A stretch of 53,544 nt of DNA from Candidatus Yanofskyibacteriota bacterium (GTDB taxonomy: Bacteria > Patescibacteriota > Minisyncoccia > 2-02-FULL-40-12 > GWA2-44-9), in NCBI GenBank assembly GCA_016185505.1, contig JACPNL010000005.1:1-53544 (forward strand), read 5' to 3'. Below the pieces are notes generated by a model. That model did not search any database, was not told where the DNA came from, and saw only the letters and a list, made by a program, of their open reading frames with translations. Position numbers and translations under genes: made by a program. Shown one piece after another: positions 10,051 to 36,612 of the stretch. The stretch's first letter is position 1, and every line of letters begins with the position of its first letter.

Positions 10051-11010
10051 ATGAGCGAAGCGAATAACAAAAATCTGCCTCGGGACACCTTTCTATATCT
10101 TCTGGCCATCATAACTTTGGTTGTAGTTGCGGTTGGATTCGGGATGGCTGTTTTTAATTATATTGATTTTTATTTCCCAGATCCGGCGACGGACTATTAT
10201 AGGAGCGCTTCTTCGTACGAGGGAGCTATAAGGCAGGCGATGGCGATGCTTATCGTTGTGTTCCCGGTTTTCTTTTGGGTTTCTAGATTTCTACGAAAAG
10301 ACGTTCGGCTTCATCCCGAAAAGAAAGAATTAAAAATAAGAAAGTGGCTCTTATATCTTACTCTGTTTGCGGCCGCGCTTGTGATAATAGGGGACTTTGT
10401 GACCGTGGTTAATAATTTTCTAAGAGGCGAACTTACAACCAGATTTGCATTAAAGGCGCTGACCATTTTCTTTATTTCCGGTTCGGTTTTTTATTATTAT
10501 CTGGCACAGCTAAAGGAGAAGGGGTCAGGTACTCTCTTTTTAAAGTACCTGACCCCCTTCATCGTGGCGGTGGTTATCGCAGCTGTAGGATGGGGATTTG
10601 CCGTAATCGGTTCGCCTTTCGCGCAGAGAGAGAAACGCTTTGACGAAAAGAGGGTTCAAGATTTGCAAACAATACAGAATCAGATTATTTATTACTGGCA
10701 GAGCAAGCAGTCGCTTCCCTTGATTTTATCAGATCTCGAAGATACTATTTCCGGCTTCAAAGTACCGCTTGATTCGCAATCGGGCGAGGAATATGAATAT
10801 TCTGTATCTAGAGGAGACGAAGTTGGCTTTGAACTTTGCGCGGTTTTCAACAATTCTGATATTAGCGGCGTTGAAACAAACGTTGTGGTCAAACCAGTTG
10901 CTCCGCGCGGTGAATATTATACTAATGAGAATTGGCAGCATGACGCGGGGAGGTATTGTTTTGAAAGAACTATAGACCCCGATCTTTATCCATCCATTAA
11001 ACAAAAATGA
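10051..11010 (+). CDS. DUF5671-containing membrane protein
   Basis: Protein of 319 residues typical of CPR genomes. The N-terminal DUF5671 domain has four or five hydrophobic helices (about residues 15-200), with the family-like start LPRDTFLYLLAIITLVVVAV. A soluble C-terminal region (about 205-319) contains RVQDLQTIQNQIIYYWQSKQ, reminiscent of pilin-like or assembly proteins. Function is unknown. A family D palindrome (10518-10560) is read in frame at a loop between helices, encoding KGSGTLFLKYLTPF. It overlaps the FKBP gene by ATGA, which indicates translational coupling. Confidence 0.8.
   Translation: MSEANNKNLPRDTFLYLLAIITLVVVAVGFGMAVFNYIDFYFPDPATDYYRSASSYEGAIRQAMAMLIVVFPVFFWVSRFLRKDVRLHPEKKELKIRKWLLYLTLFAAALVIIGDFVTVVNNFLRGELTTRFALKALTIFFISGSVFYYYLAQLKEKGSGTLFLKYLTPFIVAVVIAAVGWGFAVIGSPFAQREKRFDEKRVQDLQTIQNQIIYYWQSKQSLPLILSDLEDTISGFKVPLDSQSGEEYEYSVSRGDEVGFELCAVFNNSDISGVETNVVVKPVAPRGEYYTNENWQHDAGRYCFERTIDPDLYPSIKQK
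10518..10560. repeat. Family D palindrome inside the DUF5671 gene
   Basis: Arms GAAGGGGTCAGGTACT (10518-10533) and AGTACCTGACCCCCTTC (10544-10560). The same arms occur inside the glycosyltransferase gene at 33936-33976. The frame stays open. Confidence 0.85.
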
Positions 11011-11531
11011 CAAAATCAATATTTATTTTTACAATCTTAGTCGTGTTTGTGGCAATTGCTGTCTGGTTTGTTATTCAAAAAACAAAAGAAGTCGGCCGTC
11101 CCGTGACATCGGATGTCCAGCGGCCATCCGATGTCGTTAATCCGTCTGACGACAAAAACGCCGTTACTGAAACGACGAATGAGCCCATTCAGTATGATAA
11201 CGGCTTAACGGTTCAAGATGTAGTTGTCGGCACCGGCAAAACGGCCGAGAACGGCGATACTTTAAGCGCTCACTATGTCGGCGCGCTTGAGGATGGAACG
11301 GTTTTTGACGAATCATACGGCAGGGGACAACCGATACAATTTGTACTGGGTTCCGGTCAGCTTATTCAGGGCTGGGAACTTGGTTTAGTTGGCATGAAAG
11401 AGGGCGGTAAGAGGCGACTGGTCATACCGCCTGAACTCGGCTACGGCGAAAGGGGAGCCGGCGGTGGCGCAATCCCGCCCAACGCAACTCTTTTGTTCGA
11501 AATAGAACTCGTAGGGGTAACGAAACAATAA
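11007..11531 (+). CDS. Membrane-anchored FKBP-type peptidyl-prolyl isomerase
   Basis: Prolyl isomerase that assists folding of extracytoplasmic proteins. It has an N-terminal membrane helix (about residues 5-22), a disordered linker and a complete FKBP domain (about 70-174), with the conserved SAHYVGALEDGTVFDESYGR, FVLGSGQLIQGWELGLVGM and YGERGAGGGAIPPNATL. The linker holds a family E palindrome read as TSDVQRPSDVVNPSDD. A periplasm-side foldase suits a genome region encoding many large secreted proteins. It is coupled to the upstream DUF5671 gene. Confidence 0.92.
   Translation: MTKSIFIFTILVVFVAIAVWFVIQKTKEVGRPVTSDVQRPSDVVNPSDDKNAVTETTNEPIQYDNGLTVQDVVVGTGKTAENGDTLSAHYVGALEDGTVFDESYGRGQPIQFVLGSGQLIQGWELGLVGMKEGGKRRLVIPPELGYGERGAGGGAIPPNATLLFEIELVGVTKQ
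11105..11135. repeat. Family E palindrome in the FKBP linker
   Basis: GACATCGGATG (11105-11115) and CATCCGATGTC (11125-11135). Read in frame as TSDVQRPSDV. Confidence 0.8.
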
Positions 11532-14536: not shown

Positions 14537-14575
14537 CCTGTGGATAAACGACTTCGCAAGTCGTTTATCCACAGG
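14537..14575. repeat. Family A palindrome
   Basis: CCTGTGGATAAACGACTT and its exact complement around a CGC loop. It contains inverted DnaA-box-like 9-mers. It lies just upstream of the glycosidase start and is open in that frame (LWINDFASRLSTG). Confidence 0.9.
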
Positions 14576-14597: not shown

Positions 14598-15626
14598 ATG
14601 ATTATGAAAAAGAGAACTAAAATTATTATCCAAATTTTACTGATCATCATTGCCGTTCTTTGGGTTTTTTCTTTGGATTTTTCGGACGAGATGGGCGAGC
14701 CGATTTACGGCGTTTCTTTCAGCCGCTTCCATACCGATGAGCTGGGGCTTGACTGGAGAGAGACATATCTTGCTCTTCAAAATGAGCTGGGGGTGAAAAA
14801 TTTCAGGTTTTCCGCCCACTGGCCGCTGACAGAGCCGGAAAAAGATAAATATAATTTTGCGGAACTTGATTTTCAGATGTCGGAAGCTCGCAGTAGCGGT
14901 GTGTCGGTCATTCTGGCCGTTGGCCGGCGCTTGCCCGGCTGGCCGGAATGCCATGAACCCCAATGGGTTCAAGATCAAAAATTAAAAATTAAAAATCAAA
15001 AAGAATTCGAATTATTTAAACAGGAAAGAATTTTGAAATATATAGAAACGGTAGTTAACAGATATAAGGGCTATGATAATATAATTTATTGGCAGGTGGA
15101 AAACGAGCCGTTCTTAACCGGCTTCAGCCGTTCGGAATGCGGGCCTCTAGATAAGGAGTTCTTAGACGAGGAAATTGCCTTAGTTAAATCTCTTGATGAT
15201 AGACCTATTCTAATTACTGACAGTGGTGAGATTGGTGATTGGTTCAGGGCCTATTCTCGCGGGGATGTTTTCGGAACCAGTTTATATCTGTATGTCTGGC
15301 CTAGGTCCATTGGTTTTCCTATACGTTATCCAGTCACACCGGCGTTCTTTCGGATAAAACATAACCTCGTGCGCCTGATTTTGGGCGCCAAACCGTCCTT
15401 TGTTGTTGAGTTATCGGCTGAACCGTGGCTTCTCCAGCCGATAGTTGAGACGCCCACAGAAGTTCAGTTGGACAGAATGGGTATAGACAAGTTTAACGAG
15501 ATGATTGATTTTTCCGCTAAATCAGGTTTTAATGAGTCTTATCTGTGGGGCGCCGAATGGTGGTACTGGCTGAAATTACAGGGACTCCCCGATCATTGGG
15601 AGCGGGCTAAACAACTATTCAACTAA
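14598..15626 (+). CDS. Membrane-anchored clan A glycoside hydrolase-like protein
   Basis: Protein of about 342 residues: an N-terminal signal anchor (about residues 6-23) and a TIM-barrel glycosidase-like domain. It opens with YGVSFSRFHTDELGLDW and NFRFSAHWPLTEPEKDKYNF, has the acid/base motif WQVENEPF and a late candidate nucleophile glutamate in FVVELSAEPWL, which fits GH5-type clan A enzymes. The substrate is unknown, and surface glycans are plausible given the glycosyltransferase cluster. ATG 14598 or 14604 is chosen because the upstream in-frame extension is made of a family A palindrome. A short repeat (about 14978-15000) encodes QKLKIKNQK in a loop. Confidence 0.7.
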   Translation: MIMKKRTKIIIQILLIIIAVLWVFSLDFSDEMGEPIYGVSFSRFHTDELGLDWRETYLALQNELGVKNFRFSAHWPLTEPEKDKYNFAELDFQMSEARSSGVSVILAVGRRLPGWPECHEPQWVQDQKLKIKNQKEFELFKQERILKYIETVVNRYKGYDNIIYWQVENEPFLTGFSRSECGPLDKEFLDEEIALVKSLDDRPILITDSGEIGDWFRAYSRGDVFGTSLYLYVWPRSIGFPIRYPVTPAFFRIKHNLVRLILGAKPSFVVELSAEPWLLQPIVETPTEVQLDRMGIDKFNEMIDFSAKSGFNESYLWGAEWWYWLKLQGLPDHWERAKQLFN

Positions 15627-16444: not shown

Positions 16445-16553
16445 CCTGTGGATAAACGACTTGTCCCGATTCGTTTTCAACGAATCGAGGATCCTCGATT
16501 TGCTAATCATGCTTTGCATGAAGCAAATCGGGACGAAGTCGTTTATCCACAGG
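16445..16553. repeat. Composite A+B element, copy 1 (109 bp)
   Basis: Family A arms (CCTGTGGATAAACGACTT and complement) enclose a complete family B element (16463-16534) with central CGAGGATCCTCG. It is identical over 109 bp, in the same orientation, to 17384-17492. Confidence 0.95.
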
Positions 16554-16641: not shown

Positions 16642-17394
16642 ATGGAAAGAGAAGATATAACAAAATTTATAAATTCCATCATCCTTCTTTCAAAACTGTT
16701 TACTACAACGGAGGATAGGTTTTTGAAACAAAAACTTTACGATAAACTTTCTCGTTTTGTGTCTGCGTTCGTGACGGAGCGGAAAAATAATTATTCCTAC
16801 GCGTCGTACAACTTAGGATTTCGCAACATTAACAACGTCGCGAAATCCAATGATATTGTGCAACGTTCTACGAACGTCGCACAATATCATCACCAAAACT
16901 TACTAAATTCCACCGACAATATTCTTGATTACCTGGAATATTTAGCGCACATTTCAAAAAACAATACTACTCCCCTGCTTGTAGCCCAGAGAAATCTGTT
17001 GAAATTCAAGTTACATATTTTACAAAATAATAAGGTTAGCAAAAATGAAAAAAGGGTATCGGAAACGTCGTTGGTGTCGGATGTCGCGCCGCTGACATCG
17101 GATACCCCGCGGCCTTCTGATGCAGTTCATTCTAGCATCATTAGCCCAGCTATATTGGTATCAAAACCATCTGCCAGAAATAAACCCGCTCGTCTGGCCC
17201 TGAAAACTGACTCAAACAAAGAGCAGATATTTAACTACGTAAAAAAGACCCCCGACGTACGCACTAAAGAAATTATGAGCGAGTTCAGCGCGTTGTCGGC
17301 CAGGACAGTCAAAAGAAATTTGAAGGAATTGGCTGACGAAGGTTTTCTGAAAAAAAGGTCCGACGGCGTAGCGGTATATTACACCTGTGGATAA
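16642..17394 (+). CDS. Winged-helix protein in a repeat-flanked unit
   Basis: Protein of 250 residues. The N-terminal half is helical and unassigned (DITKFINSIILLSKLFTTTE and onward). A low-complexity middle contains family E-like peptides (SLVSDVAPLTSDTPRPSDAV). The C-terminal 60 residues form a winged helix (IFNYVKKTPDVRTKEIMSEF, then RTVKRNLKELADEGFLKKR), so it probably binds DNA. Two adjacent palindromes (16816-16848 and 16852-16888) are read in frame in the N-terminal half. The gene lies between two identical 109-bp A+B composites, and the second composite provides its last codons and stop (TGT GGA TAA). The native C-terminus may have been lost. Confidence 0.6.
   Translation: MEREDITKFINSIILLSKLFTTTEDRFLKQKLYDKLSRFVSAFVTERKNNYSYASYNLGFRNINNVAKSNDIVQRSTNVAQYHHQNLLNSTDNILDYLEYLAHISKNNTTPLLVAQRNLLKFKLHILQNNKVSKNEKRVSETSLVSDVAPLTSDTPRPSDAVHSSIISPAILVSKPSARNKPARLALKTDSNKEQIFNYVKKTPDVRTKEIMSEFSALSARTVKRNLKELADEGFLKKRSDGVAVYYTCG
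16816..16888. repeat. Two adjacent in-frame palindromes
   Basis: GGATTTCGC/GCGAAATCC (16816-16848) and GATATTGTGC/GCACAATATC (16852-16888). Both contain AACGTCGC near the centre, suggesting one family with variable arms. Confidence 0.7.
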
Positions 17395-17492
17395 ACGACT
17401 TGTCCCGATTCGTTTTCAACGAATCGAGGATCCTCGATTTGCTAATCATGCTTTGCATGAAGCAAATCGGGACGAAGTCGTTTATCCACAGG
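17384..17492. repeat. Composite A+B element, copy 2 (109 bp)
   Basis: Identical to 16445-16553. It overlaps the 3' end of the winged-helix gene and ends 13 bases before the rmlA-like start. Confidence 0.95.
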
Positions 17493-18236: not shown

Positions 18237-18275
18237 CCTATGGATAACCGACATTGAATGTCGTTTATCCACAGG
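18237..18275. repeat. Family A palindrome, variant core
   Basis: Outer arms as in family A, with two mismatched positions. The core is GACAT/ATGTC instead of GACTT/AAGTC. Confidence 0.85.
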
Positions 18276-19750: not shown

Positions 19751-19793
19751 AACCTGTGGATAACCGACATTGAATGTCGGTTATCCACAGGTT
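19751..19793. repeat. Family A palindrome at the RAYT 3' end
   Basis: Forty-three bases, paired except at the loop, with outer AACCTGTGGATAAC and core GACAT/ATGTC. Its right edge contributes bases of the transposase stop codon. Confidence 0.95.
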
Positions 19794-20481
19794 ATTCAAG
19801 AGAAACTTTACCGTCTATTTGAATATCTTTCAGATATGTCTCGACGAGTTTTTTGTAGCCGGCGCTTCCGTCGAAAACCTCGTTGAGCATCTTTTTATTT
19901 AAAACTGATCCGTAGTTTTTTACGCCGAGATATTCCAAATGACTGCTCCATTTATAGGACTCGAGAAACTCAAGCGCCTTTTCCGGACTTGCTATTTTAT
20001 TTTCTCTCCATTCCGGGTATTTCAGGTCTAATGGGTTGAAATGTATGTAGAATGGCAGATGGAGGAAATGCGTATTGTCGGTGATTAGTATTTGCTTGTA
20101 TCTTCCCTGAAATAAAGTGCCCTCCCTTTTGTATTTCTGGTTGAAATACTTTGAATAACCCATATTTACTTTTTGCATAAATAGGGGAATCCCGTTTTTA
20201 ACTCTTGGAGAGAGAAGCAAATGGTAATGATTGGGCATAAGACAAAATGCGAGAATGTCTACTAATAGTTTCCTCTGTTTTCGGCTGGTAGTGTTGGCTA
20301 GGACGGGATCATTTTTGAAAGCGCCAAAAGTGCTCTCAACTCTGTCCTCGTTGTTGAGCTCGTATAGATCGTGGATAAATCTCAAATAGTCCTGTTTGTC
20401 CAGGAATATGTCTCTTTTATCAACGCCCCTGTTTAAGGTGTGATAAAAATCTTGGGTTGGTTGTTGTTTCGAATGTTCCAT
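19792..20481 (-). CDS. REP-associated tyrosine transposase (RAYT, Y1_Tnp)
   Basis: Single-strand DNA transposase-like protein of 229 residues, full length. It starts FYHTLNRGVDKRDIFLD, carries the HUH motif in LMPNHYHLLLS (His85, His87), then GTLFQGRYKQILI, and the catalytic tyrosine in PFYIHFNPL (Tyr145). RAYT proteins cut and join REP hairpins and are thought to spread them. The gene lies between family A palindromes at 19751-19793 (touching the stop) and 20513-20555 (32 bases upstream of the ATG), the arrangement expected for a REP-RAYT unit. All key residues are present. Confidence 0.92.
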   Translation of the reverse strand: MEHSKQQPTQDFYHTLNRGVDKRDIFLDKQDYLRFIHDLYELNNEDRVESTFGAFKNDPVLANTTSRKQRKLLVDILAFCLMPNHYHLLLSPRVKNGIPLFMQKVNMGYSKYFNQKYKREGTLFQGRYKQILITDNTHFLHLPFYIHFNPLDLKYPEWRENKIASPEKALEFLESYKWSSHLEYLGVKNYGSVLNKKMLNEVFDGSAGYKKLVETYLKDIQIDGKVSLE

Positions 20482-20512: not shown

Positions 20513-20555
20513 TACCTGTGGATAAACGACTTCGCAAGTCGTTTATCCACAGGTA
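20513..20555. repeat. Family A palindrome at the RAYT 5' end
   Basis: TACCTGTGGATAAACGACTT and complement around a CGC loop. The core differs from the copy at the other end of the gene. Confidence 0.95.
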
Positions 20556-20794: not shown

Positions 20795-20833
20795 CCTGTG
20801 GATAAACGACTTCGCAAGTCGTTTATCCACAGG
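20795..20833. repeat. Family A palindrome in a 5' leader
   Basis: Same sequence as 14537-14575, ending 28 bases before the ATG at 20862. It is open in frame with the gene (LWINDFASRLSTG), giving a false N-terminal extension. Confidence 0.92.
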
Positions 20834-20861: not shown

Positions 20862-21383
20862 ATGTTGAACTGGAGGAACATTTTTAAGAGCTGGACCGGG
20901 GTGCCGGTCTTAATTTTGGTTGTTTTGGCGGGTGTTTGGTTTTTCCCCGGCTACAGAAGCTGGCAGATCCAGCGCGCTTACGACAAAGTAGAAGAACCCT
21001 ACTACACCGATACCTATGGTGGCGCCACTCCTGAAGAAACTTATGATTTGTTCATTGACGCTCTCAAAGACGGCGATGTTGAGCTGGCAAGTAGGTATTT
21101 CGTGATTTATAAGCAAGATGATTGGCTGAAAACGCTTAAAGAATATGAAAAATCAGGAATTATTTTAAGTTTTGCCAAAGAATTGGAAGATACTAAGAAA
21201 ATATGGAAAAAGTCAGAAAAAAGTGACGAAGAGACAACCTCGTTTACGTATAAAGTTTTAATTGAAGAGGATGACACTGCAACCTTTGAGGGTCAAGAGA
21301 TTAACATTCCGGCTGGTAACTATACTAATGAAACTGTGTTTATAAAATATCCAAGCGGAGTATGGAAACTAGAAGGACTATAA
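20862..21383 (+). CDS. Membrane-anchored NTF2-like (DUF4878-type) protein
   Basis: Protein of about 173 residues: a membrane helix (about 14-29) and a small alpha/beta domain. The segment TPEETYDLFIDALKDGDVEL and the ending SGVWKLEGL resemble DUF4878/NTF2-like lipoproteins. Role unknown. ATG 20862 is used because the upstream frame is only a palindrome. It overlaps the next gene by 22 bases, so the two are probably co-translated. Confidence 0.6.
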   Translation: MLNWRNIFKSWTGVPVLILVVLAGVWFFPGYRSWQIQRAYDKVEEPYYTDTYGGATPEETYDLFIDALKDGDVELASRYFVIYKQDDWLKTLKEYEKSGIILSFAKELEDTKKIWKKSEKSDEETTSFTYKVLIEEDDTATFEGQEINIPAGNYTNETVFIKYPSGVWKLEGL

Positions 21384-24300
21384 ATCCAAAATTTATTTTA
21401 GGAGGGGCGCTTTTAGGCGCCTTTTTGGTACTCGCAAACGCGAACCCAATTTTTGCTTACTCACAACATACGACTCATCCGGCGCTGACAAGTAATATAG
21501 TTGATTTTTACAATTTAAGCTTAAAAGACAAAACTGTAACCCAAGAGGAAAAGCAGTGGCTCATAAAGGGCTCCATTGACGAGGACGATGGGGGCAGGTT
21601 TTTCAGCCATTTTTACGATCCGGTTTACGACCGGGGACTTCAGTCGGTTTTTACCGCCGGTGTGCCTACAATTTCTTCAAAAAAGTGGGCTATGGGCGAT
21701 ACGCAAAAGAATTTTTATAACAGCCAGATGACCGGATACGCGGCTATATCAGGCGCTGATTCAATTCACGATTTCTCTTATGACAGAGCGTTGCAGGATT
21801 ACGCAAAAGGAGATAAACAAAGGGCTTTCATTGCGTTTGGCCACGTATTGCATTTGCTTGAAGACGCCGGAGTGCCGGATCACACTCGCAACGATCCTCA
21901 CCCACCCGTTCTTGATATGGGGAGTCCTTATGAACACGAGATGGATAAGTGGAACCCGGATAATTTTCAAATAGCTAGAACATTGTTTTTGACAAGAGAA
22001 AAACCAGTCGCGTTATCTGATATTGGCAGTTACATGGATAGGGTCGCTAATTATTCTAATAATAATTTCTTTAGCAAAGATACGATAAGTAATAAAGCAT
22101 ATAGTAATCCCAACGTAAATAAAACAAAAAGCTTATTCTTGGGTGGCGATGAATATCTTTTCATTGTCGGCAACGCTAAAGATGGTAAGGAATTTCCTAT
22201 TGCTTTTGTTGATATTGCGATTGTAGAAGGCAAGAAAAAGATTGTAGACATAACGTTATCAAAACCAAAAATCGGCTCCTATATCCTCGACGGGTATTGG
22301 GACAGATTGTCTAAAGAGGTTGTTGTTAGCGGGGCGGGGGCATTGAGGTTGTTTTTAGAGGAGGCGGAGGCGGCTCGGCGGGAGTATTTGGCTAAAATTG
22401 AGACGAAAAAGCCGTCTTTCTGGGCGCAGGTTGCTGGTTTGTTTGGGTTTGGAGATAAAAACGGATTAACAACGTCGGATGTCGACCCAACATCCGACGT
22501 TAACGGTGATGGATTAACGACATCGGAAGGCCGCGGGACTTCCGATGTCAATGGTGACAGTGGTGACACGAGTGGTGACAGGAAAGTGTCACCATCAGTG
22601 TCACCATTGTCACCAAGTTTGTCACCATTGCCTTTGGTGACACCAAAGGTGTCACCACTTGTGTCACCTACTCCACAGACCTCACCTTCTCTGTCACCAA
22701 CGCCGAAGCCAAATTCAAATATCAAAACCACTGGCAAGGTGGTCATTAACGAGGTCGCTTGGGCGGGAACAGAAGCATCAGCCGCTGATGAATGGATAGA
22801 GCTTTATAATACCGAGAGTTACGATATTGATCTTTCTGGATGGACGCTCAAGGCGGAAGATGGAACGCCGGATATAATTATTTCTGGATTAATAACATCG
22901 GATGGCCACAGGACATCCGATGTTAACGATGGCGGTACGACATCGGGAGTCAACAGCGCGGTAATCAAAGCACAGAGTTACTTTTTGCTGGAAAGGACTG
23001 ATGACACTACCGTGAATAGTATTACGGCTGATCAGACATACGCTGGCGCTTTGGGGAATGAAGGCGAGTTATTGCGGTTAACCGACGCGTCAGGAACATT
23101 CGTTGATACCGCTGGAAATAGCGGTTCAGCATGGCCAGTCGGTAGTTCTACCGGCAAAATATCAATGGAGAGGACCGCCTCTGGTGTCTGGAAAAATTTT
23201 ACAGGTAATCCGTCGGCTAAAGATGCTAACGGAAACTTTATTAATGGGACGCCTAAAGCTCAAAATAGTCCGGGAGTAATAATGGTGACAGGAGGAGGTG
23301 GTGGTTCGACAAACTCATCGCAAGCAACTCCGACACCAACGGTGTCACCAACAGTGTCACCAACACCAACAGTGTCACCAACCCCGACACCAACCCCAAC
23401 TCCGTCACCAACACCAACCCCGTCACCAGAGCCGGATGGTGACAGCGAGGATGGTGACACCGCCGCCCTAGGCGACGTGATGATTAACGAAATTGCCTGG
23501 ATGGGGACTAACGCTGAAAACGGTCAATTCTGCGAATGGATAGAACTTCGCAACATAACCGGTAGCGAGATTAACTTGACGGGGTGGGGTATTTACGAAC
23601 AAGGAGGAGATGTTTTGGTTATGTCGTTGACGGGCATAATATCTCCGAATGGCTATTACCTAATTGAACGCGTTACCCCCTCGTGTCCTGATGCTGTGCC
23701 GAGCGTTGAGGCCGACGACTCCGGGTCTTTCGGCGGGAGCGGCCTTGCCAATACCGGAGAGAATTTGATATTGAAAGACGTTTCTGGCACCGTCATCAAC
23801 CAAGTTGATGGTTCAAACGATTGGAAATTGAACGGGGATAGCGGCGAAAAAATTGGCGACAACACCACCAAAAAAACCGCTCAACGGATGGATAGCGGGT
23901 GGATTACTGCCGCCGCAACGCCTAAGGCGCAAAATAGCGCCGATACTATTACAACCCAAGCCCCTTCCGCCGTTACCGACCTTGACGCTGCGCATGGCTC
24001 TCCTACTATTACCGCTACCTGGACCGCGCCTGATCCGGGCGATTACAATACCGCCAGTTTGAGCTATGACTTGCGTTACTCGTCCACAATTTTTACAGAA
24101 GCCGCGAGCGCGAGTTGGTGGTCTGCCGCCACACAAGTGGCTAGTTCCAGCTTGCCGAGCGTCGGTGTAAAGGGGGCGTCACAAAACGCCTCCTTTGATG
24201 TCGTTCCCGAATACGGCTTGACGCTATATTTCGCGTTAAGAACCAAAGTTATCCACACAACGACTTGCGAAGTCGTTAATGAAGAAACTGTGGATAAGTG

Positions 24301-25471
24301 TTCTGCGATTTCGAATTTGGCTACGGTTAGTTTTGATAGCGCTTTGGATGACGGCGCTTGGGGGATGTTTGGGAAAGACCAATATCACACTTCTTTGGCT
24401 ACCGTCGCCGGACCGGGGGCGGGCGCGACTGTCAGCTGGGAATTCAATGCACCAGTCGATTGGGGCATTGCTCAACCGGTGGCAGACAGCGACGGTAACA
24501 TATACTTTGGCGCGGCAGACAATTCATCCGGTAAACTAATTAAACTTGATAAAAACGGCGTAAAACCATCCGGATGGGAGGATTATAATACTGGCGTTAA
24601 TATCGGTACACCCGCAGTTCTGGCCGACGGGACGGTATATTTCGGTCGTGTCGGCGCTGGCGGTTTTCTGGCATTTACCGCGCTTAATTCCGAAGGCACC
24701 AACAAGTGGGATTACTCCGGCGCAAGCAAAGTTGATAAAATCACTGTCAACTCAAAAGGCGAGCCGCATTTTTCTTTTGCTCCGGTTAGCCAGAATAAAA
24801 TGCTTGTTTTGAGCGCTGACGGGACGTTAAAACAAGAAATAAGCGGCGATTTTAAAGGTCTCGCGCCGGTTGTTCTGGATAACGGCACAATCATAGCAGC
24901 CGCCAATATCAGTGGGAATCAACAATTCACCGCTTACTCATCCGGTAGCGTTAAGCTTTGGCAGGTGGCGTACACCGGCGCTAACGGGAGCGCTCCAGCT
25001 GATCCTTCATACGATAAAACAACCGGCAAGACATACTCCGCGGCAGGGTCCAAGCTATTTGACATCCAGCAAAACCCGCAGGACGGGCTGATTCCTAATT
25101 CAAATGTACACGACATTGCCCCGTTTGATTACTTAGCCGCTACGACGGTTGCGATAACGTCCGACACGCTTTATGTTGGGTTCAATGCTCTAATTGAGGC
25201 GTCCGGCTCTTTGCTGTACGCTCTCAACAAGTCGGACTTGTCAGAAGAGTGGTTCTTCCAAGCCGACGGCCTGCTCAATAAACAGCCAGTCGTAGACAGC
25301 GCCGGCAATGTCTATTTTTCAACTAAAAACGGCAAATTATACGGCGTGGATTCAGATGGTGCGCAACTCTGGGTCATAAATTCTGGCTTAGATTCGACGA
25401 TTTCCCCGGTTTTGACCGCACATGGTTTGGTGTGGGGGTATGGGAGGAAGATAGTACTTATTAAGGACTAA
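21362..25471 (+). CDS. Secreted zinc phospholipase C-like / lamin-tail / PQQ-propeller chimera
   Basis: Large secreted protein of 1,369 residues. After a signal peptide (about 1-33) comes a zinc-dependent phospholipase C/nuclease-like domain (about 35-290), with GHVLHLLEDAGVPDHTRND supplying His/Asp ligands. Two lamin-tail domains follow (KVVINEVAWAGTEASAADEW at about 459; DVMINEIAWMGTNAENGQF at about 705), then a fibronectin-like domain (about 865-990) and a PQQ-type beta-propeller to the end (GNIYFGAADNSSGKLIKLDK and later repeats). Threonine/proline linkers separate the domains and are partly built from repeat DNA: family E, GGTGACA/TGTCACC repeats and an inside-out family A relic. It probably acts on the surface or on host lipid or nucleic acid; that is inference. 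Confidence 0.75.
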   Translation: METRRTINPKFILGGALLGAFLVLANANPIFAYSQHTTHPALTSNIVDFYNLSLKDKTVTQEEKQWLIKGSIDEDDGGRFFSHFYDPVYDRGLQSVFTAGVPTISSKKWAMGDTQKNFYNSQMTGYAAISGADSIHDFSYDRALQDYAKGDKQRAFIAFGHVLHLLEDAGVPDHTRNDPHPPVLDMGSPYEHEMDKWNPDNFQIARTLFLTREKPVALSDIGSYMDRVANYSNNNFFSKDTISNKAYSNPNVNKTKSLFLGGDEYLFIVGNAKDGKEFPIAFVDIAIVEGKKKIVDITLSKPKIGSYILDGYWDRLSKEVVVSGAGALRLFLEEAEAARREYLAKIETKKPSFWAQVAGLFGFGDKNGLTTSDVDPTSDVNGDGLTTSEGRGTSDVNGDSGDTSGDRKVSPSVSPLSPSLSPLPLVTPKVSPLVSPTPQTSPSLSPTPKPNSNIKTTGKVVINEVAWAGTEASAADEWIELYNTESYDIDLSGWTLKAEDGTPDIIISGLITSDGHRTSDVNDGGTTSGVNSAVIKAQSYFLLERTDDTTVNSITADQTYAGALGNEGELLRLTDASGTFVDTAGNSGSAWPVGSSTGKISMERTASGVWKNFTGNPSAKDANGNFINGTPKAQNSPGVIMVTGGGGGSTNSSQATPTPTVSPTVSPTPTVSPTPTPTPTPSPTPTPSPEPDGDSEDGDTAALGDVMINEIAWMGTNAENGQFCEWIELRNITGSEINLTGWGIYEQGGDVLVMSLTGIISPNGYYLIERVTPSCPDAVPSVEADDSGSFGGSGLANTGENLILKDVSGTVINQVDGSNDWKLNGDSGEKIGDNTTKKTAQRMDSGWITAAATPKAQNSADTITTQAPSAVTDLDAAHGSPTITATWTAPDPGDYNTASLSYDLRYSSTIFTEAASASWWSAATQVASSSLPSVGVKGASQNASFDVVPEYGLTLYFALRTKVIHTTTCEVVNEETVDKCSAISNLATVSFDSALDDGAWGMFGKDQYHTSLATVAGPGAGATVSWEFNAPVDWGIAQPVADSDGNIYFGAADNSSGKLIKLDKNGVKPSGWEDYNTGVNIGTPAVLADGTVYFGRVGAGGFLAFTALNSEGTNKWDYSGASKVDKITVNSKGEPHFSFAPVSQNKMLVLSADGTLKQEISGDFKGLAPVVLDNGTIIAAANISGNQQFTAYSSGSVKLWQVAYTGANGSAPADPSYDKTTGKTYSAAGSKLFDIQQNPQDGLIPNSNVHDIAPFDYLAATTVAITSDTLYVGFNALIEASGSLLYALNKSDLSEEWFFQADGLLNKQPVVDSAGNVYFSTKNGKLYGVDSDGAQLWVINSGLDSTISPVLTAHGLVWGYGRKIVLIKD
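22486..22931. repeat. Repeat-built linker coding DNA
   Basis: Three family E palindromes (about 22486-22500, 22523-22553, 22895-22931) encode TSDV or TSEG peptides. Between them, 22555-22700 is dominated by GGTGACA and TGTCACC in both orientations, encoding GDSGD and then repeated VSP. A similar tract lies at 23281-23460. Confidence 0.75.
24245..24298. repeat. Rearranged family A relic in the fibronectin-like domain
   Basis: TTATCCACA and TGTGGATAA flank an ACGACTTGCGAAGTCGT core, the reverse of the normal box orientation. It is read in frame as VIHTTTCEVVNEETVDK. Confidence 0.6.
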
Positions 25472-25563: not shown

Positions 25564-25702
25564 GTAATTATCCACAATTGACACTATTGCGCGCCACAAT
25601 AGGCGATATATAATTGAGTTATTGATGGTTGACTTCTATCAACCCGTTTGATAGCATCGTTAAGTTAAACATCACAGAATACAAGGAAAAATAAAGGACA
25701 TT
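25564..25702 (+). promoter_or_regulatory. DnaA-box-like 9-mer and promoters of the S-layer leader
   Basis: TTATCCACA (25568-25576) is followed by TTGCGC-16-TATAAT (25587-25614) and TTGACT-17-TAGCAT (25629-25657). Either promoter would give a leader of about 580-620 bases before the gene at 26245. Confidence 0.45.
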
Positions 25703-32407: not shown

Positions 32408-32462
32408 CATCTCCAACAAGCCCCAAGCGATCCAACAAATGAAATGATCCAACACTTCCAAC
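32408..32462. repeat. Family F right arm
   Basis: AACATCTCCAACAAGC, AAGCGATCCAAC and CACTTCCAAC units, complementary in part to 31999-32040. It supplies the ATG and first codons (MIQHFQR) of the next gene. Confidence 0.65.
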
Positions 32463-34273
32463 GGCTTATCTTCGTGTTGCTCTTCGGCCTTTTGGCCGTT
32501 TTTCTCGTTCACAATTTTGACTCTATCGGTCAGGATATCGGCCGGCATTTGAAGACAGGGGAGATCATTTGGCAGACAAAAAGTGTTCCGACAACTAATC
32601 TATTCTCTTACACTGAACCGGATTTTCCGTTTACTAATCATCATTGGCTAAGCGAGGTAATATTTTACGGCGTCTATAATTTGGGCGGATTTGGCGGTCT
32701 TATTTGGCTTAAGATTTTTGTCATTCTTGCGACATTTTTACTGCTATTTCTTACGATAAAACACCTGTGGATAAACGACTTGCGAAGTCGTTTATCCACA
32801 GGCAAAAGAATAGGTTTTTGGCCGGTTTTTGTCTCTTTCCTCCTCTCAATATTTATATTTATTTCCCGGACAGAAGTGCGGCCGGAGATATTTAGTTTTT
32901 TTATACTTTCTTTTTTCCTCTTTGCTTTGTTCAAAGCTAAATATGGAGGTGATGGAACTGGTAGAAGCGTTGGAAATGATGGAAATGATGGAAGTGTTCG
33001 AAATGACAACTCCAACAAGCGAAGCGATCCAACAAGCGAAGCGATCCAACAACTCCAACAAGCGAAGCGATCCAACGCTTCGAACAATCTTCTCTGGTTT
33101 TTGCCGTTAGCACAACTTCTTTGGGTTAACCTTCACATCTATTTCTTCATAGGGCCGCTCATTTTTTTGTTCTTTTTGATTGACAGAGCGGTGAATAAAA
33201 AAATTGTTGGAAGTGATGGAGATGTTCGAGATGTTCGAAATGAAAATACAAATCTATCAAGCGAAGCGGTCCAACATCTCCATCAAGCGAAGCGATCCAA
33301 CAGCTCGAACATATTATGGATTTTTATTTTAGTCGTTCTGGCTACCCTGATAAATCCCGCGGGCATTCAAGGCGCTCTTTTGCCTTTTAATATCCTGAAA
33401 GAATATGGTTATAGCATTGTTGAGAATCAAACACTCGCTTTTTTGGCTGACTTTTTTGGTTTTAATTTGTCGATATTCATTTTTAAGATCTCGGTGGCGA
33501 TTGCCGCCGTTTTGGTTTTATTAAACATCAAAAAAGCGAGAGAAAGGTTCTTTGAGATCGCGATCCTGGCGTTTTTTATCTTTGCCGGATTTAAGATGCT
33601 CCGTAATCTTCCCTTGTATGCTCTAGTTTCTTTTCCAGTGATGGCGGTGTTGTTTACGGATGCGATGGGTACAATTAACAATTTACAATTTACAATTAAC
33701 AATCGAAGAACGACAATTAGTAACATTTTTAAGACGGCAGTCGCTGGGTTCCTGGTTTTTATGATATTTTTTGTGGCGAGCGGAGGGTATTATAAGTGGA
33801 CTAGATTGTCCAAAACATTTGGATTTTCCGTGCCCGATGGACTTCGACAAGCAACTGATTTTGTTAAGGAGAATAATATTGAAGGGCCGATGTTCAATAA
33901 CTTTGATATCGGCGGGTATTTAATATGGCAGATTGAAGGGGTCAGGTACCCTGCTGAAAAGGTACCTGACCCCTTTAGGGTTTTCGTTGACAATAGGCCG
34001 GAAGCGTATTCGGCTGAGTTTTTTAGTGAAGTATATAAGCCGATGCAGGCAGAACCAGAAAAGTGGAAAGAATTTTCAGAAAAATACGGCATTAATTTCA
34101 TATTTTTCGGCCATACCGATGCGACGCCATGGGGGCAGGCGTTTTTGCAAAACATTGTCAGAAACCCGGAATGGAAAGTGGTATTTATTAACGAAAGTGC
34201 TATTATTCTGGTTAAAAACAACGAAAAGAACAGGCCGGTTTTTTCAAAATATAAATATGAGCTTACGGAATAA
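32444..34273 (+). CDS. GT-C-type glycosyltransferase-like membrane protein with five repeat insertions
   Basis: Polytopic protein of 609 residues. The start IGQDIGRHLKTGEIIW, then FSYTEPDFPFTNHHWLSEVI, is the pattern of a GT-C-like family with a conserved aspartate in the first external loop. It probably transfers a lipid-linked sugar on the outer membrane face. Five repeat tracts are read in frame: family A (KHLWINDLRSRLSTGK, near residue 110), two family F (RSDPTSEAIQQ and SEAVQHLHQAKRSN), an AT-rich tract (INNLQFTINNRRT) and family D (EGVRYPAEKVPDPFR). The last lies within the segment GGYLIWQI...VFVDNRPEAY, continuous in relatives as I know them. The N-terminus MIQHFQR comes from a family F arm. 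Confidence 0.75.
   Translation: MIQHFQRLIFVLLFGLLAVFLVHNFDSIGQDIGRHLKTGEIIWQTKSVPTTNLFSYTEPDFPFTNHHWLSEVIFYGVYNLGGFGGLIWLKIFVILATFLLLFLTIKHLWINDLRSRLSTGKRIGFWPVFVSFLLSIFIFISRTEVRPEIFSFFILSFFLFALFKAKYGGDGTGRSVGNDGNDGSVRNDNSNKRSDPTSEAIQQLQQAKRSNASNNLLWFLPLAQLLWVNLHIYFFIGPLIFLFFLIDRAVNKKIVGSDGDVRDVRNENTNLSSEAVQHLHQAKRSNSSNILWIFILVVLATLINPAGIQGALLPFNILKEYGYSIVENQTLAFLADFFGFNLSIFIFKISVAIAAVLVLLNIKKARERFFEIAILAFFIFAGFKMLRNLPLYALVSFPVMAVLFTDAMGTINNLQFTINNRRTTISNIFKTAVAGFLVFMIFFVASGGYYKWTRLSKTFGFSVPDGLRQATDFVKENNIEGPMFNNFDIGGYLIWQIEGVRYPAEKVPDPFRVFVDNRPEAYSAEFFSEVYKPMQAEPEKWKEFSEKYGINFIFFGHTDATPWGQAFLQNIVRNPEWKVVFINESAIILVKNNEKNRPVFSKYKYELTE
32764..32802. repeat. Family A palindrome, in frame
   Basis: CCTGTGGATAAACGACTT and complement with loop GCG. 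It encodes LWINDLRSRLSTG between two membrane helices. Confidence 0.95.
32945..33083. repeat. Family F element, in frame, copy 3
   Basis: Left arm of TTGGAAATGATGGAAATG units, right arm of repeated AAGCGAAGCGATCCAAC. It encodes a Ser/Asn/Lys-rich segment after a membrane helix. Confidence 0.8.
33207..33312. repeat. Family F element, in frame, copy 4
   Basis: GTTGGAAGTGATGGAGATG and right arm CCAACATCTCCATCAAGC pair with each other. It encodes SEAVQHLHQAKRSNSSN. Confidence 0.8.
33936..33976. repeat. Family D palindrome, in frame
   Basis: AAGGGGTCAGGTACC (33936-33950) and GGTACCTGACCCCTTT (33961-33976). It has the same arms as 10518-10560, a different loop, and a frame kept open. Confidence 0.85.
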
Positions 34274-34274
34274 G

Positions 34275-34460
34275 TTGTTACATTGTTATATTGTTAGTCC
34301 CGATTTTGTATCCCAATTCCGAAGGAATCGAGGACTCTCGATTACCAAGCAATCGGAGCAAAATCGAGGATCCTCGATTCGAATAGCGAATCGGGACAAT
34401 TCAGCAATGTAGCAATGAGCCGCGTAGCGGCTGAACAATGTAACAATGTGACAATATAAT
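34275..34460. repeat. Family G arms around nested B elements
   Basis: TTACATTG/CAATGTAA-type arms lie outside a B element (34297-34397). The first hairpin loop of that B holds a second, degenerate B with its own central palindrome. It fills the gap before the TPR glycosyltransferase. Confidence 0.8.
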
Positions 34461-34461
34461 A

Positions 34462-36612
34462 ATGAATAACTTGATTTTTAGAAAAGAAGCCTGGTTTTTG
34501 ATCACGATCCTTATAATAGTAGGTAGCTTTATTTACTCGTTCAATCTAAACAACGAGCTTTTTTGGGATGATGACGATTGGATAATAAATAATGTTTATG
34601 TTCATTCGGTAAGCTGGGAGAATGTTAAGTTTTTGTTTTCAAATAATGTTTTAGCGGGTGTTGGGCTTCAGAGCAACTACTACCGGCCGTTTTTATTTTT
34701 TACGTTTGCTTTTAACTGGGTTATTTCTGAAACCAAGCCGTTTCTTTGGCATTTGGTTAGCAATTCAATACATATTGCCAATGCGGTGTTGGTGTTTGTG
34801 TTATTTAGAAAATATGTCGGCAACTTGGTCTCGTTTCTTACCGCTTTGTTCTTTGTTGTTCATCCTCTTAATACAGAAGCCGTAGCTTATATTTCCGGCC
34901 GCGGCGATCCGTTATCTGCCCTCTTCCTCCTCCTGGCTCTCTACCTGTGGATAAACGACTTGTCCCGATTTGTTCTGCGCAAAGCGCAGTTAACAAATCG
35001 AGGACCCTCGATTTCGCGGCCAAGCTTTGCTTGGGCGAAATCGGGACAATATCGATTATTCACAGGAGGGTACAGTACTGTACCCTCCACAGGGGTTAGG
35101 TGGCTTAAAATCTTATCTCTGGCAGCTTTGGTTCTTGCTATTTTGAGCCGGGAGACGGGGGTTATATTTCCTTTCCTTTTGATGGTTTTTTACGTCTCGT
35201 TTATTTCTCAAGACAGATTTGTTAAATCGGTCAAAAAAGCATTCTTTGAAGCATCGCCCTACTTTGGAGTTGTTGTTGTCTATAGTATTCTACGGCTTAC
35301 AGTATTGAATTTCCAGAATACTCTGAATTTTTATGCCGCGCCGAACCTATATTCGGAAAATATAATTTATCGCCTCTTTACATTTATGCACGTCTTGGTT
35401 GATTACTTCCGCTTACTGTTTGTGCCGACAGGACTTCATATGGAACGAAGTATGGTGGTACATACATCGCTTTTCCAATGGCCCGTCTGGTTGGGAGCTA
35501 CGATCATTGTTACATTGCTATATTGCTTAATTGTTATGTACAGAAAGGTTAGGGTTGTTAGAAATGTTCGAGATGATGGAGATGATCAATTCGAACAAGT
35601 GAAACGATCGAACATCTCGAACAATTCAAACGACTTATATGCGAAGCGATCCAACAATTCCAACAAGCAAAGCAGAGTACAGGACTGTACCCTGCAAAGC
35701 GATCCAACGTTCCGAATTTGGTTATTCGGAACGGGTTGGTTTTTCATTGGCCTGGTAATGGTTTCTGGTATTACGCCTATCAACGCTTTGATATATGAGC
35801 ACTGGCTGTATTTGTCGATGATCGGGGTCTGGGCCATCTTTTCCTTTTATCTGGTAAAACTACTCGACTATCTAAATCACAAATTACAAACTACCCCGAA
35901 CAAAAATCAAAGATTTTCAACGGGGCAGGCAAATCACAAACAATACCAAGATTCTAATGATCAAAACACAAAACAACGCGTTTGGAATTTTGAATTTAGT
36001 AATTGGAATTTGTTTGGAATTTGTAAATTGGTGCTTGTGGTTTTTATAATATTTTATATTTCTTTTTTAGGATATCAATCCGTAAAAAGAAATATCCTGT
36101 GGGGCAATCCTGTTGAATTCTACAAGAACATTATCAAATACGAGCCGGACAGCGTCAGAATAAATAACAATCTCGGTAATCAATACTTTAACCGGGGCGA
36201 TATGGAACAGGCGGAGGTTTATTATAGAAAAGCAATAGAATCGGGGGACCAGTTTGCCCAGCCATATTATAATCTGGGGAGCATACTGCAGTCGCGGGGC
36301 GATATTGTCGGCGCAATCACTGAATTTGATAAGGCGATAAAAATTGATCCGAACTTTTATTATCCATATCAAAACTTAGCTGTTATTTACGCGCAACGGG
36401 GGGACTTTGTTCAAGCTGTTTTGAATGTGGAAAAACTGAAACTACTTCTTCCTTCTAACCCCAGAGTCTATTATAACTCCGCGCTTATTTATATTGCCCT
36501 TAATAACAAGGAGAAAGCGCTCATTGATCTTAACGAAGGACTGAAGTATTCCAGCGTTGACCCGGAGACGGGGAACTTAATAGAGAAACTTATTCAACAG
36601 CTGGAAAATTGA
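34462..36612 (+). CDS. TMTC-like GT-C glycosyltransferase with TPRs, enlarged by repeats
   Basis: Membrane glycosyltransferase-like protein of 716 residues. An N-terminal GT-C part has the acidic loop LFWDDDDWIINN and the YISGRGDPLSA segment. A C-terminal TPR array (about residues 560-716) includes NNLGNQYFNRGDMEQAEVYY. TMTC relatives are protein O-mannosyltransferases in eukaryotes; bacterial substrates are unknown, S-layer proteins being an attractive guess. Compared with its paralogs at 36707 and 44775 it has three extra loops, each made of repeat DNA: A+B+C (LWINDLSRF...STG, about 49 residues), F+C (RSNISNNSNDLYAKRSN, about 55 residues) and a K-type tract (NHKQYQDSNDQNTKQR). Confidence 0.8.
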   Translation: MNNLIFRKEAWFLITILIIVGSFIYSFNLNNELFWDDDDWIINNVYVHSVSWENVKFLFSNNVLAGVGLQSNYYRPFLFFTFAFNWVISETKPFLWHLVSNSIHIANAVLVFVLFRKYVGNLVSFLTALFFVVHPLNTEAVAYISGRGDPLSALFLLLALYLWINDLSRFVLRKAQLTNRGPSISRPSFAWAKSGQYRLFTGGYSTVPSTGVRWLKILSLAALVLAILSRETGVIFPFLLMVFYVSFISQDRFVKSVKKAFFEASPYFGVVVVYSILRLTVLNFQNTLNFYAAPNLYSENIIYRLFTFMHVLVDYFRLLFVPTGLHMERSMVVHTSLFQWPVWLGATIIVTLLYCLIVMYRKVRVVRNVRDDGDDQFEQVKRSNISNNSNDLYAKRSNNSNKQSRVQDCTLQSDPTFRIWLFGTGWFFIGLVMVSGITPINALIYEHWLYLSMIGVWAIFSFYLVKLLDYLNHKLQTTPNKNQRFSTGQANHKQYQDSNDQNTKQRVWNFEFSNWNLFGICKLVLVVFIIFYISFLGYQSVKRNILWGNPVEFYKNIIKYEPDSVRINNNLGNQYFNRGDMEQAEVYYRKAIESGDQFAQPYYNLGSILQSRGDIVGAITEFDKAIKIDPNFYYPYQNLAVIYAQRGDFVQAVLNVEKLKLLLPSNPRVYYNSALIYIALNNKEKALIDLNEGLKYSSVDPETGNLIEKLIQQLEN
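34944..35093. repeat. Nested A+B+C composite in frame (150 bp)
   Basis: Family A left arm, a complete B element (34962-35047), the damaged A right arm, then a C palindrome (arms GGAGGGTACAGT and complement, 35065-35088) bordered by a CACAGG duplication. The length is divisible by three. Confidence 0.9.
35559..35710. repeat. Family F element with embedded C palindrome, in frame
   Basis: TTCGAGATGATGGAGATG-type left arm and AAGCGATCCAACAATTCCAAC-like right arm. A C element (GCAGAGTACAGGACTGTAC) sits inside the right arm, and AAGC(A)AAGCGATCCAAC continues after it. Confidence 0.75.
35876..36033. repeat. AATTTG/CAAATT-rich tract, in frame (family K)
   Basis: The first half is rich in AATCACAAA and ACAAAAC. 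The second half is TTTGGAATTTTGAATTTAG and TTGGAATTTG, partly complementary. It encodes an Asn/Gln/Lys-rich loop. Confidence 0.55.

Follow-up and report, generated by a model that had tools for sequence, protein, structure and literature searches.

The window, i.e. the whole stretch of 53,544 nucleotides analyzed here, carries two neighboring membrane-protein genes that contain copies of a 39-bp perfect palindrome (CCTGTGGATAAACGACTT-NNN-AAGTCGTTTATCCACAGG, hereafter family A), further copies between genes, and a gene for a RAYT (TnpA-REP-like) transposase (Table 1). A preliminary description of this DNA had reported the repeated palindrome, read in frame as the same peptide within two membrane glycosyltransferase genes. 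The repeat and its in-frame position in the first gene (32764-32802 in ORF 32444-34273) were confirmed, and copies of the same DNA were found between genes of the window, as had been stated. The peptide is complete at 32764, but at 34944, where an 84-bp repeat splits the element, only LWINDL is left; this second element ends at 35066 and not at 35093, and positions 35065-35088 belong to a separate palindrome. The glycosyltransferase assignment was not confirmed, as Pfam matches of the two hosts were limited to the C-terminal TPR repeats of the second; a comparison of the host gene with plasmid proteins gave no match either. The copies at 14537 and 20795 had rightly been regarded as false N-terminal extensions: ORFs 14511 and 20787 have better ATGs near 14600 and 20863, leaving both copies intergenic.

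Table 1. Family A copies, host genes and transposase gene, with coordinates in the window.
Feature	Position	Strand	Remarks
Family A	14537-14575		Intergenic
Family A with nested repeat	16445-16553		Intergenic; length of 109 bp, not divisible by 3
Family A with nested repeat	17384-17492		109 bp, between genes; its TAA terminates ORF 16642-17394
Family A, diverged variant	18237-18275		Intergenic
Family A variant with AACCGACAT arms	19753-19791		Directly 3' of RAYT gene
RAYT / TnpA-REP-like Y1 HUH transposase, 229 aa	19792-20481	-	Y1_Tnp E=1.1e-9; HYH and Y---NP motifs intact
Family A	20515-20553		Directly 5' of RAYT gene
Family A	20795-20833		Between genes; read as a false N-terminal extension in ORF 20787
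Family A, rearranged	24249-24297	+	Within ORF 21362-25471; the feet of the core hairpin are reversed, which opens the normally closed third frame
Host gene 1, 609-aa membrane protein	32444-34273	+	No Pfam match; element at aa 107-119
Family A, perfect	32764-32802	+	In frame, reads LWINDLRSRLSTG
Host gene 2, 716-aa membrane protein	34462-36612	+	C-terminal TPRs; split element at aa 161-201
Family A split by 84-bp second repeat	34944-35066	+	123 bp = 41 codons, in frame; right arm degenerate (ATATCGATTATTCACAGG)
Short palindrome GGAGGGTACAGTACTGTACCCTCC adjoining the split element	35065-35088	+	Also in frame

Distribution of family A and its linkage to a transposase gene

Matches to the palindrome arm were far more frequent than expected both in the window (17 vs. 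0.04 in shuffled sequences) and in the 681-kb Parcubacteria genome to which it belongs, G000 (52 vs. 0 for the reversed pattern used as control). The search of genome and relatives proposed in the preliminary description yielded approximately 28 copies in G000, plus a few rearranged ones, as read from the sequence stretches around each copy. Family A thus displays the dispersed hairpin copies typical of REPs, in a number (~28 in 681 kb) that is low for such elements. As RNA, the 39-mer forms a hairpin of 18 bp closed by a 3-nt loop, with a folding energy of -28 kcal/mol (z = -11.5), and GTGG is found at both feet, inside the palindrome and several bases off the CGAC core stem. Among the 113 genomes searched, all genomes compared being metagenome assemblies, the only ones with many copies outside G000 were G001, G002 and G020, while two further genomes showed one arm match each, with two mismatches. 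The two 109-bp split elements of the window are identical and lie on either side of gene 16642-17394, about 0.9 kb apart.

The transposase motifs HYH (residues 85-87) and YIHFNP (145-150) were recognized in the RAYT protein, with H85, H87, Y145 and N149 invariant among 10 homologues. Its gene is bracketed by two family A copies (19753-19791 and 20515-20553), and the same arrangement was observed for the orthologues in G001, G002 and G020 (82, 81 and 73% identity, respectively; assigned to Candidatus Yanofskybacteria on the basis of named records), each of which is located between two copies of the variant of its own genome. More distant RAYT genes are often flanked on either side by other hairpins, several of which have a common ACGAC...GTCGT core. 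The RAYT gene of the window is likely to be the source of family A. A comparison of the protein with PDB sequences gave no match at E 0.001, and Pfam revealed no DnaA-like C-terminal domain even at E 10, so that the connection to the DnaA box described below does not run through such a domain. Family A copies were also looked for near a second Y1 gene (C29), and none were found. In a more distant relative, G030, the RAYT gene itself seems to hold an in-frame REP remnant (NDIASRT, L283 1501-1519).

Reading frames and insertion sites within genes

Two of the three frames of family A are free of stops, reading PVDKRLAKSFIHR (frame 1) and LWINDLRSRLSTG (frame 2), and both are used genome-wide; frame 3 contains TAA. 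Besides the two genes described above, in-gene copies in G000 were found in homologues of tRNA-guanine transglycosylase (TGT), AlaRS, MnmA (two sites), PlsY and Wzy, and in a class-V aminotransferase (cysteine desulfurase) labelled IscS in this analysis. Only 10 of the 26 two-armed copies of G000 lie in genes, compared with a coding share of ~87% as measured in the window (P = 1.5e-8), which indicates that most insertions into genes have been lost. A preference of in-gene copies for an open frame, which the preliminary description had proposed to examine, was indeed observed: among the 55 two-armed copies of G000, G001, G002 and G020, 25 are in genes, at ~12 distinct sites, and none of these 25 is read in the stop frame (chance (2/3)^12 = 0.008 for 12 independent sites), a test which is weak alone, given the 12 sites and the fact that ORF calling itself favors open frames. 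In-gene copies read in frame 3 are rearranged, with one foot altered or reversed, and encode peptides such as VIHKTTSQVVYPQ; their hosts are glycosyltransferase family 2 genes and an M24 peptidase gene. In several different family-2 glycosyltransferase genes (L060 and L059 in G000, L085 and L082 in G002, L075 in G020), the element occupies a comparable stretch that follows the DNASEE/DGSRE motif. Nested copies within genes measure 123, 111 and 111 bp, all multiples of three, vs. 109 bp for each of the three intergenic ones, a contrast based on six copies of which three are near-identical.

As is the case for Rickettsia palindromic elements (RPEs), alignments of orthologues revealed in-frame insertion into unrelated protein genes, the corresponding sites being empty in relatives. 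Inserts of 13 codons were identified in GT1, GT2, the IscS-like gene, MnmA (two sites) and TGT, at positions where the loop of relatives is different and usually shorter; at the GT1 site, for instance, IAKKHATFWP in G011 corresponds to TIKHLWITDLRSRLSTGFWS in G020, of the same genus, and at the IscS site NGPTRKDRLPNN in G011 corresponds to NGPVDKRLAKSFIHRLPNN in G000. The net gain in TGT and IscS is below 13 residues, which indicates that part of the loop sequence was lost. In the AlphaFold model, the IscS insert forms a low-confidence loop (pLDDT ~59) flanked by confidently modelled strands. The preliminary description had named orthologues from distant relatives with the same peptide at the same site as evidence for an ancestral sequence, and the result was mixed: the element is present at the same site in congeners and in one other genus, but in the family and order the majority of genera lack it, so that it is an insertion, though an old one. 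The presence of the segment in two to four related genomes, and in several genes, would also be expected of an ancestral protein segment, but identical DNA recurs in genes unrelated to one another, where it is read in two frames, as well as in intergenic DNA, and most orthologues in the family and order have no such segment; this reading was rejected on the grounds of the empty sites and intergenic copies, and its probability is negligible. A related REP, read in frame as TTSQVV, was found in the YqeY and class-II fructose-bisphosphate aldolase genes of the order-level relatives G029 and G030 (L292 1501-1519 in G029; L276 1501-1519 in G030), so the habit extends beyond one genus.

Concerted change at shared sites

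At the in-gene sites common to two to four genomes (TGT, IscS, MnmA2 and GT1), flanking sequences differ by 26-39%, and third positions of identical codons in the flanks of the four orthologous sites by 38-55%, while the element differs at 0-4 of 39 positions in most comparisons. The exception was TGT in the comparison with G020, with 7/39 differences and a reversed loop; at the other extreme, the IscS element showed 0/39 differences between G000 and G001 (P = 7e-7). Most of the differences within the element are matched changes in both arms. The pair at arm position 12 is A in 23/26 copies of G000, T in 9/10 of G002 and C in 6/6 of G020, and mixed in G001. A private variant, TGTTGATAA, is shared in both arms by the IscS and MnmA2 copies of G002, and the GT2 copy of G001 is a hybrid in which an A arm faces a T arm. 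Loop orientation is kept at most shared sites, with the exception of TGT in G020 and GT2 in G001. Judging by these patterns, the old in-gene copies have evidently been re-homogenised, by copying between sites or by repeated re-insertion; we infer that the copying would be driven by RAYT.

Low divergence could alternatively reflect youth, if shared copies were independent recent insertions at favored loops, with no rewriting in place. Loops such as site 1 of MnmA do collect repeats: the site is occupied by family A in G000, by a hairpin resembling its own RAYT-adjacent REP in G011 and by a short tandem repeat in G001. Different repeats in the same loops of other genomes, as well as the opposite loop orientation of the TGT copy in G020, are what such insertions would produce. 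At IscS, MnmA2, TGT and GT1, however, the junction is identical or almost so in two or three genomes, as is the loop orientation, and the hybrid of A and T arms at GT2 in G001 also argues against this alternative, which we consider rather unlikely.

Each arm of family A contains exactly TTATCCACA, the DnaA-box consensus 9-mer, and approximately 50 of the 76 copies of this 9-mer in the genome are located within elements, a notable coincidence. Outside elements, ~25 copies were found in the genome vs. ~5.6 expected (scaled from a base-composition expectation of 0.44 in the 53.5-kb window), and 14 of 21 isolated sites lie just 5' of a -10-like box, compared with a background of 18%. Isolated sites at 25568, 38629 and 3522 in the window, and at L090, L094, L097, L099 and others, are found just upstream of TTGACA/TATAAT-like promoters; isolated sites could possibly represent a class of DnaA-regulated promoters. 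With the box exact in every arm, a motif that seems functional in G000 and a DnaA encoded in the genome, the palindromes might be kept as inverted DnaA-box pairs for titration or regulation, their identity being due to selection for predicted binding and not to copying. This is quite improbable, as position 12 lies just beyond the box and is constant in a given genome while differing between genomes, two in-gene copies of G002 carry TTATCAACA in both arms, so that the box is broken and the palindrome kept, and the box is missing from most of the hairpins that flank RAYT genes in the rest of the class. Titration was dropped as the main cause of conservation on account of the first two of these observations. 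Since a change at position 12 alters a residue and falls outside the box, selection at the protein level and the DnaA box both fit the pattern poorly.

Relation to known palindromic elements

Taken together, family A is probably a non-autonomous REP-type element of a RAYT (TnpA-REP) HUH transposase, with copies that are rewritten in place; its dependence on RAYT is suggested by linkage and co-occurrence. The hairpin, when the DNA is single-stranded, would be the substrate from which RAYT seeds copies, and those landing in genes would mostly be lost. The survivors are found in tolerant loops, where they are read in either open frame. Third-frame survivors are restricted to the rearranged form, in which the stop is gone, as observed, and since 39 bp amount to 13 codons, nested inserts would persist in genes when the total is a multiple of three, as seen in the few cases available. 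Rewriting in place would then change the arms jointly and let all copies drift to the variant of the genome, old shared in-gene sites included, a pattern which the data display; it might proceed through nicking by RAYT and copying from another copy, or through re-insertion at the same site. Points against the assignment to REP/RAYT are the low copy number and the placement of GTGG, unlike that of canonical GTAG REPs; in addition, shared sites could stem from repeated insertion into one loop, not from inheritance.

As in REP/RAYT systems (REPtrons, TnpA-REP), short hairpins flank a class-2 Y1 HUH transposase, and some copies lie in frame in genes or provide a stop codon. The ends of family A, GTGG...CCAC, a foot and its complement, resemble those of 'double foot' REPs (PMC6006769). 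Family A differs from REP/RAYT in that as many as 10/26 copies are in genes, in being a full palindrome with an inverted DnaA-box consensus, in its old in-gene copies homogenised across species, and in its Parcubacteria host. In-frame intragenic REPs have been tabulated in many bacteria of other phyla (Di Nocera 2013, PMC3733652). With REPINs (PMC3116915, PMC8049555) it shares near-identical short palindromes in one genome and compensatory hairpin changes, but it consists of one 39-bp hairpin, not of two inverted REPs; REPIN-like inverted pairs were detected in the relative G029.

The preliminary description had likened the palindromes to RPEs, which are in-frame palindromic repeats of ~150 bp (PMC10969869). 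The parallel stands as regards an inserted, repeated element that encodes an in-frame peptide, recurrent in many unrelated protein genes, but REP/RAYT is the closer kind, the RAYT gene at 19792-20481 having been overlooked. Family A is shorter (39 vs. ~150 bp) and linked to a transposase gene, whereas rickettsial CGTC repeats are apparently without a dedicated one (PMC3733652); the likeness was drawn from descriptions of RPEs. It is likely that family A works like RPEs and is to be classed as REP/RAYT. No report of such elements in CPR bacteria, of which the preliminary description had known none, was found in the literature searched, the coverage of which was incomplete.

In this Parcubacteria lineage with its streamlined genome, segments of proteins are thus supplied by mobile palindromes, which are tied to a transposase of the same genome. 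It is conceivable, although we would not go as far as calling it probable, that transposase-linked repeats actively overwrite their own copies in place, including those fixed in conserved housekeeping genes; many unrelated proteins would then have a stretch of 13 residues that is rewritten concertedly, species by species. Whether gene conversion takes part in REP evolution was asked by Higgins et al. in 1988, as cited in PMC3116915; with old in-gene copies that change in concert, this long-standing choice among gene conversion, re-insertion and selection becomes testable, because flanking codons serve as a clock.

Other repeats were also observed in the window. A second palindrome family (GACATCGGATGTCC...), at 11105, 17094, 22471, 22519, 22893 and 31435, provides in-frame TSDV...SDV linkers in several genes, and a third palindrome (GGGGTCAGGTAC...GTACCTGACCCC) is in frame in two genes (10521-10556 and 33936-33975). 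Tandem GGAAATGAT / GCGAAGCGATCCAAC repeats, at 32936-33311 and 35533-35716, are in frame in both membrane-protein genes.
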